DNA of 52,872 nt. Source: an uncultured Actinomycetes bacterium. Lineage in GTDB: Bacteria > Actinomycetota > Acidimicrobiia > Acidimicrobiales > Microtrichaceae. Positions 20,392 to 25,940 of this stretch are shown here, in pieces. Location: the NCBI GenBank assembly GCA_903873135.1, contig CAIQNH010000134.1, positions 1 to 52,872 of the forward strand, read 5' to 3'. The notes below the pieces were generated by a model, which was not told the origin of the DNA, made no database searches, and was given only the letters and a program-made list of their open reading frames with translations. A program made the translations under genes and the position numbers. Numbering within the stretch: the first letter of the stretch is position 1; each line of letters begins with the position of its first letter.

Positions 20392-20679
20392 GTGCCCTCC
20401 GAGACACACGTGCAGCAAGGACCGATCTCCCGGGAGGAGGTGCTCCGCATCGTCGTGGAGCGTCTCGCCGAGATCCTCGAGATCGACGCGGGGACGATCT
20501 CCGAGGAACAGTCCTTCGCCGAGGACCTGCGTGCCGACTCGCTCGCCCTGATCGAGCTGGTCGAGGTGCTCGAGGACGAGTTCGGAGAGCGGAGCGTCGG
20601 GTTCCGCATCGAGGACGAGGACCTCGAGGACCTCGTGACCGTCCGGGATGCCGTTGACTACGTCCACGCCCGGCTCTGA
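20392..20679 (+). CDS. acpP: Acyl carrier protein
   Basis: 95 residues, acidic. EDLRADSLALIELVEVLEDE contains the DSL motif; its Ser is the 4'-phosphopantetheine attachment site. GTG at 20392 is preceded by an SD (GGTAGGAG). It lies between rpmF and rnc. In many bacteria that stretch holds plsX-fabH-fabD-fabG-acpP, so only the ACP remains here. It could serve general fatty-acid synthesis or a dedicated pathway. The rnc start lies inside its last 32 bp. Confidence 0.9.
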   Translation: MPSETHVQQGPISREEVLRIVVERLAEILEIDAGTISEEQSFAEDLRADSLALIELVEVLEDEFGERSVGFRIEDEDLEDLVTVRDAVDYVHARL

Positions 20680-21475
20680 CCCGGTCGACGGCCCAGCCGT
20701 CGACGGCGCGCCCCGGACGATCGAGGATCGTCTCGGCCACCGGTTCGCCGACCCCGACCTGCTCGAACTGGCCCTCCGTCACCGGTCCTGGTGCTCCGAG
20801 CACGGCGGCGTCCTGTCCAACGAGCGGCTGGAGTTCCTCGGTGACGCCGTGCTCGGGGTCGTCGTGACCGACCACCTGTACCGGTCCGATCCGGAGCGTC
20901 CCGAGGGTGTGCTGGCCCGGTGCCGGGCCGAGCTCGTCAACGCCGTCGCGCTCGCCGGCGTGGCCCGGGAGATCGACCTCGGGGCCTCCCTGCGCCTCGG
21001 TCGGGGCGAGGACCAGACGGGCGGGCGGAACAAGACGTCCATCCTGGCCGACGGGCTCGAGGCCCTGATCGGCGCGGTGTACCTCGACGGAGGGGTCGAG
21101 GCGGCCACCGAGGTGGTCCTCCGCCTGTTCGGCGACCGGATCGACGCCGTGCTGCGGGGTTCGGTGGACTCCGACGCCAAGTCGAGGTTGCAGGAGCTCG
21201 CCGCCCAGTTCGGCGGAGAACCACCCCGCTACCGACTGACCGAGGAGGGTCCGGAGCACGACAAGCGCTTCACCGCCCGGGTCGAGGTGGCGGGGTGCGC
21301 GGGGACCGGCGTCGGCCGGACCAAGAAGGAGGCCGAGCAGGTCGCCGCCCGCGGCGCCGCCGCCGAACTCCTCGCCAGGTTCGCCGCCGGGGACCAGCCC
21401 GGGGGCGGCCCGCCCGACGACACCCGGTCGACCGCTCCGGTCGACCCCATCCAGACCGGAGGCCACTGTGCCTGA
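20648..21475 (+). CDS. rnc: Ribonuclease III
   Basis: 275 residues. NERLEFLGDAVLG is the RNase III signature; LADGLEALIGAVYLDGG holds the second set of acidic metal-binding residues; SRLQELAAQFGGEPPRY begins the dsRNA-binding domain, ending KKEAEQVAARGAAAELL. It processes rRNA precursors and structured mRNAs. ATG at 20648 is inside the end of acpP, with only a weak SD, so expression is probably coupled. A Pro/Gly-rich tail of about 30 residues follows the dsRBD. Confidence 0.96.
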   Translation: MPLTTSTPGSDPVDGPAVDGAPRTIEDRLGHRFADPDLLELALRHRSWCSEHGGVLSNERLEFLGDAVLGVVVTDHLYRSDPERPEGVLARCRAELVNAVALAGVAREIDLGASLRLGRGEDQTGGRNKTSILADGLEALIGAVYLDGGVEAATEVVLRLFGDRIDAVLRGSVDSDAKSRLQELAAQFGGEPPRYRLTEEGPEHDKRFTARVEVAGCAGTGVGRTKKEAEQVAARGAAAELLARFAAGDQPGGGPPDDTRSTAPVDPIQTGGHCA

Positions 21476-22301
21476 GCTCCCCGAGATCGAACTGCTGCGT
21501 CGGGACCTGGACCGGGACGTGGGTGGTCGCAAGGTCAAGGCCGTCGACGTCCCGGGTGCGGGGCTCGTGTCGCACCCGACCAAGAAGGCCTTCGCCACGG
21601 CGCTGGTCGGGACCAAGCTCACGGGCGCACGTCGACGCGGCACCACGATCCTCGTGGGCGTCGACGGGACCCACGAGATCGTGCTCACGCTCGGCGACCA
21701 GACCCGCCTCCGGCGTCAGGCGGCCAAGGAGCCGACCATCAAGGGGACGGCGATGGTGATCAGCTTCACCCAGGGTCCGCAGCTCCGCCTGATCGACCCG
21801 AAGCGCCAGGGCTCGGTCGAGCTCGTCGCCGTCGAGGAGCTCGCCGAGCGCCACCCCGAGTTCGCCAACCTCGGCCTCGACCCGGCCGACGAGCCCATCT
21901 CCTGGACGACCTTCGGCGAGGCGCTCCTCCGTCGCGACGAGCGGCTCAAGGTGGTGCTCACGGACCCGACGTTCCTGGTCGGGATCGGCCCCGTCTACTC
22001 CGACGAGATCCTGTTCCACGCCGGCCTCCGCTACGACCGGATCGCCTCGGGTCTCAACACCCAGGAGATCCGTCGGCTGTACCGGGCGGTCGTCGAGACG
22101 GTCCACGACGCGATCAAGTACGGGGGCACCTCGATCGGCCCCGACGGGTGGGTCGGACTCGACGGGTCGCCCGGTTCGTACGGCGAGCACCTCACCGTCT
22201 ACAAGCGGGACGGCCAGATGAGCCCCCGGTCACGGGGCCCCATCGTCAAGACGAGGTACGGGAGCGGCTACACCTACTACTGCGAACAGACGCAGGTGTA
22301 G
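21468..22301 (+). CDS. Divergent Fpg/MutM/Nei-family protein with a lost zinc finger
   Basis: 277 residues. The start MPELPEIE keeps the Pro and Glu that act in catalysis, and the helix-two-turn-helix region is recognisable (FLVGIGPVYSDEILFHAGL). Against E. coli Fpg, aligned by eye: the active-site Lys region RRAKYLL is RRRGTTIL, the HLGMSG loop is TLGDQT, the DPRRFG void-filling segment is DPKRQG, and Asn of GNIY is Pro. The C-terminal zinc finger keeps only one of four Cys: GEPCRVCG is GQMSPRSRG and FYCRQC is YYCEQT. The position between rnc and smc is that of mycobacterial fpg. It may be a zinc-less lesion glycosylase or a binding-only protein. Confidence 0.85.
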   Translation: MPELPEIELLRRDLDRDVGGRKVKAVDVPGAGLVSHPTKKAFATALVGTKLTGARRRGTTILVGVDGTHEIVLTLGDQTRLRRQAAKEPTIKGTAMVISFTQGPQLRLIDPKRQGSVELVAVEELAERHPEFANLGLDPADEPISWTTFGEALLRRDERLKVVLTDPTFLVGIGPVYSDEILFHAGLRYDRIASGLNTQEIRRLYRAVVETVHDAIKYGGTSIGPDGWVGLDGSPGSYGEHLTVYKRDGQMSPRSRGPIVKTRYGSGYTYYCEQTQV

Positions 22302-22451: not shown

Positions 22452-25400
22452 GTGTTCCTCAAGACACTGCAGATCAAGGGATTCAAGTCGTTCGCCGACC
22501 CGGCGACGATCGCGCTCGAGCCCGGCGTGACCGTGGTGGTCGGACCGAACGGCTCGGGGAAGTCGAACGTGGTCGACGCCATCGGCTGGGTGCTCGGCGC
22601 CCAGGCGCCGTCGGCCGTGCGCTCCCAGAAGATGGACGACGTCATCTTCGCCGGATCGGGCAACCGGACGCCCCTCGGGCGCGCCGAGGTCGCCATCACC
22701 ATCGACAACTCCGCCGGTCTGCTCGACATCGACTTCACCGAGGTGACCATCTCCCGCCTGCTGTTCCGGTCGGGGGAGTCGGAGTACGCCATCAACGGGG
22801 TCCCGTGCCGTCTGCTCGACATCACCGACCTGCTCTCCGACACGGGCGTGGGTCGTCAGCAGCACGTGATCATCTCGCAGGGCAACATCGACGCGGTCCT
22901 GAACTCGCGCCCGGAGGACCGGCGGCTCATCATCGAGGAGGCGGCCGGTGTCCTGAAGTACCGCCGTCGCAAGGAGAAGGCGCAGCGCCGGCTCGCCGAC
23001 ACCGACACCCACCTGACCCGGGTCCAGGACCTCCTCCGCGAGGTCCGGCGCCAGCTCCGCCCGCTCGAGCGCCAGGCCGAGGCGGCCCGTCGCCACGGCG
23101 ACCTGGTCGCCGAGCTGACCTCCCTCCGACTGTTCGTCGCCGGTCGCGAGGTGGAACGGCTGCGTCGGATCCTCGAGCAGTCCTCGGCACGTCAGCACCA
23201 ACTGCGCACCGACGGCGACCGGCTCCGGGCCCAGCTCGGTGATCTCGACGCCCGCATCCTGACGGCCGAGGCTGACCTGGCCGCGCTCGGTGGACGCGAT
23301 CTGTCCGACGCCCTGGTCCGCTACGAGCGGCTCGAGGAGCGGGGTCGGGGCGTGGCGGCACTGCTGGTCGAGCGGGCCGCCGGTGTCGAGCGGGAGCTCG
23401 CTGCCGCCGTCGACGCCGCCGTGGTGGCGTCGCTCGAGTCCGAGCGGGGCACGCTGCAGTCCGAGGCCGAACAGGTCGCCACCGAGCGCCAGGCGCTGGA
23501 GCACGACTCCGACGAGCTCCTCCGTGACGAGGCGACGCTGGCCGACCGTCGCGCCGCGTTCGAGGAGGAGTGGGGCGACGGGGTGGTCGTGCCCGCCGGC
23601 GAGGGTGCCGCCCTGCGTGGCGAGATCGCAGCGTTGCGGACCGCCGGCGAACGGGCGGCGGTCGACGAGCAGCGCCTGACGGGACGTCGGACCTCGATCG
23701 AGTCCCGGCTCCGCCGGCTCGGTGAGGAGCAGTCGGAGCTCGACGCCGCCCTGGCCACGGCCAGCGAGTCCGGCCCGGTGCGTCGCGCCGCTGCCGAGGA
23801 GGCCGGGGCCGCGGCGCGTCGGGCCGAGGAGGAGCTCGCCGCGGCCGAGGCGGCCGCCACGGAGGCCGAGGTGGACCACTCGGCCTGGACGGCCCGGGTG
23901 GAGGCGCTCTCGCTCGCCCTGGACGAGGCCCGGGAGCGCTCCGGTGCCACCACGCTCGCCTCGCTCGACGGCACGCTCGGCACCCTGGCGGAGCTGGTCG
24001 AGGTGGACGACGGCTGGGTCGAGGCGTTCGAGGCCGCCGCGAGCGAGGCGCTGGGTGCCGTGGTCGTCGCCGACGTCTCCGCCGCCCGCCGGGGTCTGCG
24101 GTCGCTCGTCGACGGCGACCACGCCGGGGCCGTGCTCGCACTCGGCCCCGCAGGTGGGGCCGGGCCGCGTCCGGCATTCGGCGAGTCCGTGCGGGACCAC
24201 GTCCGGCCGTCGGATCGTGCGGGCGCGGCTGCCCGCGGGGTCGCCGACCTGCTCGACGCCCTGTTGTCGCGGGCCGTGCTGGTCCGGGGCGGCTGGGAGG
24301 CTGCGGTCGAGGCGTCCCTGCGGGACCCCTCGGCGGTCGTCGTCACCGAGGCCGGCGGCCGGTACGGATCGACCGGGTGGCGACTGCGGGCGGCCGGCTC
24401 GGGTGCCACGGGTGCTGCGCTCGACGAGGCCCGCTCCCGGGTGGACGCCACGGCGGCGGCCCGGGACGCCGCCCGGGCACGACGGGCGACCGCCCGCACG
24501 GCGGTGGATCGGACGAGGACGGAGCTCGTCGCCGCCGAACGGGCGGTCGAGGCCGACCGGGCAGCCGCACGTGAGGCGACCGAGCGCACCGGGCGGATCG
24601 AGCAGGACCGGGCCGAGCTGTCCGAGGAGCTCGAGTCGCTCCTCGTGCACCTGGCCGAGCTCGTGGAGCGCACCCGGGGCGAGTCGGCACGGCTGGCCGA
24701 CCTCGAGCAGCAGCTGCCGGCGGTCGAGGCCGCCGAGCAGGCGGTCGACACGCAGGCCCAGCGGCTCACCACGGCACGGGACGAGCTCGAGGCGGCGGCC
24801 GCCACGATCGCAGCGCGACGGACCGACCTCGAGGTCCGCACCGCGGCGCTCGACGAGCGTCGCCGCTACGTCGAGGAACGGCGCTCGCAGGTCGAGGAGC
24901 GGCTCGGCCGGCTCGAGCAGCACAGCGCCGAGGCAGCCGGTCGCCGGGCCGAGCTCGAGGCTCGCCGGGACGCGATCACCAGGCTCTCCGGAGTCGTCGG
25001 CGGGTTGCAGGACGTGGTGGTGGACCACCTCGGCGCCCTCCGGGAGGAGCGACGGGTGCAGTCCGAGGCGGCCCGCTCCGCCACCGAGCTGCTCGAGGGT
25101 CTCCGCAACCAGCGCTCCACCGACGAGCGCTCGCTCGAGTCGGCCCGGACCGAGCTGCAGCAGGCGGAGGTGTCCGACGCCGAGACACGTCTGCGACTGG
25201 AGACGCTGACCGAGACGCTGCGACTCGACCACGACTGTGGCCCGGACGAGGCCACTGCGGCCGAGTGCCCGCCGCTCGCCGAGGGGGTCACCGCCCCGGC
25301 GAGGATCCGCGAGCTCGAGCGCGAGCTGCGGATCATGGGGCCGATCAACCCGCTGGCGCTGGCGGAGTTCACGGAGCTGAGCGAGCGCCACGAGCTCTAC

Positions 25401-25940
25401 ACCCAGCAGCTCGACGACATCCGTCAGTCCCGACGGGAGCTCTCCAAGGTCATCAAGGCGATCGACGAGGAGATCGTCTCGGTGTTCGCCTCCGCCTACG
25501 CCGACGTGAGCGAGAACTTCACGAAGCTCTTCGAGACGCTCTTCCCCGGCGGCCAGGGTCGTCTCAGTCTGACTGCGCCCGACGACCTCCTCGAGACCGG
25601 CATCGAGCTCGAGGCCCGCCCCTCCGGCAAGAACGTCCGGAAGCTCTCCCTGCTCTCGGGTGGGGAGCGCTCCCTCACGGCGCTCGCGTACCTGTTCGCC
25701 GTGTTCCGGTCGCGGCCGTCGCCGTTCTACGTGATGGACGAGGTCGAGGCCGCGCTCGACGACGTCAACCTGCACCGCTTCCTCGACCTGGTGGCGGAGT
25801 TCCGGGACACGGCGCAGCTCATCATCGTCAGCCACCAGAAGCGGACGATGGAGGCGGCCGACGTGCTCTACGGCGTGACCATGGAGCCGGGCGGATCGAC
25901 CAAGGTGATCTCGGAGCGCGCCGCCTCGGTGCTCGAGTAG
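22452..25940 (+). CDS. smc: Chromosome segregation ATPase SMC
   Basis: 1,162 residues, full length. Walker A GPNGSGKSN (31-39), the FKSFADP N-terminus, RLIIEEAAGV, a first coiled coil, a hinge at about 500-640 (GTLAELVEVDDGWVEAFEAA, VLALGP, TEAGGRYGSTGWRLR), a second coiled coil, LLSGGERSLTALAYLFAVF (signature) and YVMDEVEAALDDVN (Walker B). With ScpAB it organises and segregates the chromosome. GTG at 22452 follows a GAGGGAG site. Coiled coils are Ala/Glu/Arg-rich. The TAG stop is one of only four non-TGA stops in the window. Confidence 0.97.
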   Translation: MFLKTLQIKGFKSFADPATIALEPGVTVVVGPNGSGKSNVVDAIGWVLGAQAPSAVRSQKMDDVIFAGSGNRTPLGRAEVAITIDNSAGLLDIDFTEVTISRLLFRSGESEYAINGVPCRLLDITDLLSDTGVGRQQHVIISQGNIDAVLNSRPEDRRLIIEEAAGVLKYRRRKEKAQRRLADTDTHLTRVQDLLREVRRQLRPLERQAEAARRHGDLVAELTSLRLFVAGREVERLRRILEQSSARQHQLRTDGDRLRAQLGDLDARILTAEADLAALGGRDLSDALVRYERLEERGRGVAALLVERAAGVERELAAAVDAAVVASLESERGTLQSEAEQVATERQALEHDSDELLRDEATLADRRAAFEEEWGDGVVVPAGEGAALRGEIAALRTAGERAAVDEQRLTGRRTSIESRLRRLGEEQSELDAALATASESGPVRRAAAEEAGAAARRAEEELAAAEAAATEAEVDHSAWTARVEALSLALDEARERSGATTLASLDGTLGTLAELVEVDDGWVEAFEAAASEALGAVVVADVSAARRGLRSLVDGDHAGAVLALGPAGGAGPRPAFGESVRDHVRPSDRAGAAARGVADLLDALLSRAVLVRGGWEAAVEASLRDPSAVVVTEAGGRYGSTGWRLRAAGSGATGAALDEARSRVDATAAARDAARARRATARTAVDRTRTELVAAERAVEADRAAAREATERTGRIEQDRAELSEELESLLVHLAELVERTRGESARLADLEQQLPAVEAAEQAVDTQAQRLTTARDELEAAAATIAARRTDLEVRTAALDERRRYVEERRSQVEERLGRLEQHSAEAAGRRAELEARRDAITRLSGVVGGLQDVVVDHLGALREERRVQSEAARSATELLEGLRNQRSTDERSLESARTELQQAEVSDAETRLRLETLTETLRLDHDCGPDEATAAECPPLAEGVTAPARIRELERELRIMGPINPLALAEFTELSERHELYTQQLDDIRQSRRELSKVIKAIDEEIVSVFASAYADVSENFTKLFETLFPGGQGRLSLTAPDDLLETGIELEARPSGKNVRKLSLLSGGERSLTALAYLFAVFRSRPSPFYVMDEVEAALDDVNLHRFLDLVAEFRDTAQLIIVSHQKRTMEAADVLYGVTMEPGGSTKVISERAASVLE

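Follow-up and report, generated by a model that had tools for sequence, protein, structure and literature searches.

The rnc–smc gene of the window (the whole analysed stretch of DNA, 52,872 nucleotides), from an aquatic actinobacterium of the class Acidimicrobiia, probably encodes a glycosylase-dead pseudo-MutM that is kept by selection for a different role, working through a surface outside the lesion groove. Judging from its residues, the protein appears to have lost 8-oxoguanine excision. Disarmed copies of this kind, defined here as those retaining four or fewer of nine contact residues, are under purifying selection (dN/dS of 0.02–0.21).

Locus, residues and predicted fold

The gene starts with GTG and its 5′ end overlaps the stop of rnc by 8 nt. 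The preliminary description had placed it at the rnc–fpg–smc position, and rnc upstream and smc downstream bear this out. A role together with rnc or smc was weighed; the gene order is ancestral and is no proof of one. Just 5′ of rnc, positions 20392–20679 of the window hold a short ORF resembling an acyl carrier protein by eye. The features are as follows:

20648–21475, + strand: rnc (RNase III), upstream neighbour, with the 8-nt overlap
21458–21462, + strand: Shine-Dalgarno-like GGAGG, 5 nt ahead of the GTG start, read directly
21468–22301, + strand: putative pseudo-MutM gene, MutM/Fpg fold, 277 aa, stop codon within the range
21471–21485, + strand: PELPE, retaining Pro1, Glu2 and Glu5; sister lineages have A, L, F, Y or T at Pro1
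21642–21644, + strand: Thr59, replacing the catalytic/phosphate Lys56
21687–21704, + strand: TLGDQT, standing where HLGMSG was, with H70 and M73 lost
21795–21812, + strand: DPKRQG, standing where DPRRFG was, with intercalation residues R108 and F110 lost
21948–21950, + strand: Lys161, equal to Lys154, retained
21981–21998, + strand: GIGPVY, standing where GVGNIY was, with Asn168 lost
21990–22118, + strand: H2TH helices (residues 175–217), among the best-conserved parts of the disarmed set
22221–22292, + strand: zincless finger; C243, C246 and C266 lost, Cys272 (C263) kept; predicted hairpin strands 258–264 and 267–272
22266–22268, + strand: Gly267, at the finger tip, replacing Arg258
22452–25940, + strand: smc, downstream neighbour

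Aligned to E. coli Fpg in mature numbering, the window protein keeps P1, E2, E5 and K154, and carries the replacements K56T, H70T, M73D, S74Q, G75T, R108K, F110Q, N168P and R258G. The N-terminal Pro1 and Glu2 expected of MutM/Fpg are thus present in the window, although Pro1 is not conserved across the subfamily. The DNA/phosphate contacts Lys56, Asn168 and Arg258 are T, P and G, the wedge residues Met73, Arg108 and Phe110 are D, K and Q, and only one of the four zinc cysteines is left (S, S, C and T at positions 243, 246, 263 and 266). The MPELPE-type N-terminus and the losses listed in the preliminary description (zinc Cys, Lys, HLGMSG, Phe and Asn) are all real by alignment, and the loss of R258 is to be added to them.

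In profile searches, both Pfam domains, Fapy_DNA_glyco and H2TH, scored above their cut-offs, while NCBIfam fpg and PRK01103 covered the protein at full length with scores below theirs (163.4 against 203.3 bits and 178 against 212 bits, respectively), so that the protein falls outside the fpg equivalog for the bifunctional glycosylase. Among solved structures, MutM 1l1t is the closest in sequence (E 3.9e-39). The AlphaFold model (mean pLDDT 94.6, pTM 0.91) best matches MutM 1r2y (Z 34.2, 2.1 Å over 272 residues) and forms a finger hairpin without zinc ligands, its two strands at a pLDDT of about 94. Domains and modelled fold are those of MutM/Fpg, and the model points to an intact fold with a zincless hairpin finger; the comparison with zincless NEIL1 that had been drawn beforehand holds in structural terms. 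Such a fold is nevertheless no proof of activity.

Distribution, independent losses and constraint

The gene is conserved in Acidimicrobiia and, where the flanks could be read, lies nearly always between rnc and smc. Among 77 sampled genomes of the class, the rnc–smc copy is disarmed in 37 and normal in the remaining 40, where it has 9/9 contact residues in 39 cases and 7/9 in one copy that is 5′-truncated in the data. The window's family has the disarmed copy in 17/17 good genomes, and the residue losses are common to all 30 copies found there (one of them partial). Such losses also recur in records from unrelated assemblies, including L055 (IMCC26207, not titled MAG) and L094 (AG-414-N20, probably a single-cell genome), so that they are not due to chance or sequencing error. 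Even close members of the window's family have A or L in place of Pro1, and in other disarmed lineages this residue is replaced or preceded by an N-terminal extension. Several lineages have lost catalytic residues with all four zinc Cys kept, indicating that zinc was lost later, or never, in those lineages.

Two further variations were observed among other MutMs. The rnc–smc copy L152 (genome G127) has 9/9 contact residues with its zinc Cys replaced (C, T, S and a gap in the alignment) and, from its sequence, may be an independent zincless MutM that is active; zinc loss alone thus need not entail loss of catalytic residues. In L231, L240 and L241, from the actinobacterial families f62 and f96, MutM starts with M-E-L-P-E and lacks Pro1, with the other contacts and the zinc Cys intact, and the sequence read contained no upstream start that would restore Pro1.

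In the tree, disarmed copies nest within intact acidimicrobial MutMs. When the scored residue sites were taken out of the alignment, the careful tree required two changes, and two or more were required in 99% of bootstrap trees. One family (f35) holds both intact and disarmed copies. A single loss, as in a first quick tree joining all disarmed copies (support 58), was rejected, the likelihood being better with f35 held together. Since regaining nine residues is implausible, the pattern is taken to reflect separate losses, two or three in number, and not regains.

The window genome encodes five Fpg/Nei proteins. A second canonical mutM, for which a genome search had been proposed beforehand, was found on contig C104 with every contact residue and each of the four zinc Cys in place, and this protein presumably repairs oxidised guanine in the organism; by eye, the remaining three resemble Nei. 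A second MutM of one type (L001-type) occurs in 30/37 disarmed genomes and in 0/40 of the others. Among the seven disarmed genomes without it, three (G004, G010 and G016) carry a different MutM-type copy, G295 has the first 14 residues of a MutM where a contig ends, and no other MutM was found in G165, G208 and G220. The idea that every additional Fpg hit represents a second MutM was dropped, because the 11 such hits read in intact genomes are Fpg2/Nei-like and none is MutM-type. The link between the disarmed state and a second MutM rests on two or three independent losses only, with which an independent-pairs test cannot reach significance. As side observations, a divergent gene that by eye encodes a ParA-like ATPase adjoins the canonical second MutM at L122 2437–3315; the best match to MutY in the window genome (76 bits) is under the curated cut-off and may be Nth-like, but 0/11 genomes searched pass that cut-off, which makes a lack of MutY doubtful.

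Constraint on the disarmed copies is unevenly placed along the protein. Relative to intact copies, column entropy rises by 1.4–2.0 bits at the K56, HLGMSG and DPRRFG loops and by 1.1 bits at residues 221–240, against 0.1 to 0.6 bits elsewhere. The net charge is also lower, with a mean of +1.9 in place of +7.0. The H2TH residues Y177, E180, R191, E200, R202, R203, R206 and K217 are present in 34/34 disarmed sequences, and E2 (31/34) and E5 are nearly invariant. No conserved replacement residue was found in the wedge loop of the disarmed set, and the R258 position, Gly in the window, is variable across it. In 15/18 family genomes, similarity to the counterpart in the window genome is higher for the pseudo-MutM than for the canonical MutM. 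In G165 and G208, where the search gave no further MutM, the copies are kept at a dN/dS of 0.035, suggesting a role seemingly independent of an active MutM and weakening the idea of an obligate partner of the second MutM.

Possible functions of the disarmed copies

The preliminary description had left two options, an active enzyme with altered lesion choice or a non-enzymatic damage binder, of which the non-enzymatic part is now the better supported and the damage binder is left unsupported. The lost residues are ones that cripple Fpg (R108, N168 and R258) or Nei2 (K51) when mutated singly, and sister lineages are also without Pro1. Fpg mutants of E. coli at R108, N168 and R258 have 0.2–9.5% of wild-type specificity on 8-oxoG (PMC4737139). 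Part of the conservation of the pseudo-MutM may be structural.

The main rival reading, that the protein still repairs DNA, either as a zincless MutM of altered specificity or as an AP lyase working through Pro1 and Glu2 as NEIL1 does, is unlikely, even though P1, E2, E5 and K154 remain in the window protein, E2 and E5 hardly vary across the disarmed set and a zincless hairpin is predicted. AP cleavage is far less affected than 8-oxoG excision in the E. coli single mutants and is retained by them (PMC4737139), so that, together with Pro1, Glu2 and Glu5, some lyase activity of the window protein is possible. Nevertheless, K56 is replaced, and the K51A mutant of mycobacterial Nei2, at a position taken as equivalent, loses both AP lyase and glycosylase (PMC11323726). 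Retention of Pro1 in the window also contrasts with its A or L in close relatives and with the N-terminal extensions or replacements in others, constraint is lost in every DNA-contact loop, and the wedge loop offers no conserved residue in place of the old ones.

A non-enzymatic sensor of damaged or distorted DNA, which would recruit repair or shield lesions, seems quite improbable. Such a role would be consistent with the MutM fold, with an H2TH that keeps its conserved basic residues, and with mutant Fpg proteins without eversion residues, which keep their KM where it was measurable (PMC4737139). However, the phosphate contacts K56, H70, N168 and R258 are gone together with the wedge, no new conserved residue has appeared at the lost sites, and residues 221–240, which in MutM form the loop for lesion recognition, are unconstrained. 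Constraint is most relaxed in the loops that contact lesion and DNA, and the net charge of the protein has dropped, which argues against damage binding. A decaying pseudogene or an assembly artefact, as might be suspected from the many missing functional residues and from most of the genomes being MAGs, was rejected, given the open frame, the low dN/dS, the presence of a copy in all good genomes of the family and the repetition of the losses in independent assemblies.

For the preferred reading of a glycosylase-dead protein with another selected role, the history was probably as follows. An ancestral Acidimicrobiia MutM encoded at rnc–mutM–smc would have become a conserved pseudo-enzyme in place, where another, canonical MutM encoded at a different site (here that of contig C104 in G000) had made catalysis at the old locus dispensable. 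Residues for flipping lesions, intercalating and gripping phosphates would then have been lost, followed in some lineages by zinc. The working surface would most likely consist of the H2TH helices (R188, R191, R202, R203, R206 and K217) with the N-terminal frame, as mapped on the window protein through alignment and secondary structure, and the pseudo-MutM could act as a nucleic-acid- or protein-binding factor. More tentatively, and with some doubt on our side, a second MutM might have displaced the resident one independently two or three times in one class, the old copy not disappearing but changing, at its original locus, into a conserved protein that is non-enzymatic and has its own selected role, possibly an ancestral moonlighting role.

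Relationship to known proteins and implications

The window protein resembles bacterial MutM/Fpg (1r2y and 1k82), especially the intact Acidimicrobiia rnc–smc MutM, in fold, domain order, length, position, PELPE and H2TH frame, but differs in lacking K56, H70, M73, R108, F110, N168, R258 and three zinc Cys and in scoring under the fpg cut-offs. With NEIL1, plant FPG (3twl) and Mimivirus MvNei1 (3a42) it shares a finger hairpin without zinc ligands, with Z of 25–26 to 3twl and 3a42. Zincless fingers are known from NEIL1, from plant and fungal Nei and from enzymes of Mimivirus, and are described as taking over the role of the zinc finger (PMC3188539); unlike in these enzymes, the phosphate-binding finger Arg is missing from the window protein, which has Gly at R258, and several related lineages have lost catalytic residues yet keep their zinc Cys.

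Mycobacterial Fpg2 (Rv0944) is likewise an Fpg-family paralogue beside an intact copy, Fpg1. The M. tuberculosis protein is truncated at its N-terminus and that of M. smegmatis is complete (PMC2734929), whereas the window frame is full length and conserved. The NFACT-N domain of Rqc2/RqcH, a MutM-related fold within a ribosome quality-control protein (PMC6514570), is an ancient and distant relative; the window protein matches NFACT_N only at E 0.086, over the H2TH, and at 12.0 bits against a profile cut-off of 31 bits. NFACT-N sets a precedent in that it places such a fold in ribosome quality control. In the open-access papers searched, no description of a disarmed MutM subfamily, no conserved pseudo-enzymes at a bacterial mutM locus, and nothing relevant on Acidimicrobiia formamidopyrimidine enzymes or MutM pseudoenzymes was found.

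If this reading is true, homology-based annotation will list the protein among the MutM-family enzymes of many Acidimicrobiia, even though the repair is done elsewhere. Intact and disarmed orthologues at one locus in related genomes would then constitute a natural experiment on the roles of MutM beyond 8-oxoguanine excision, and such pairs would also bear on how an enzyme is converted into a binding protein.
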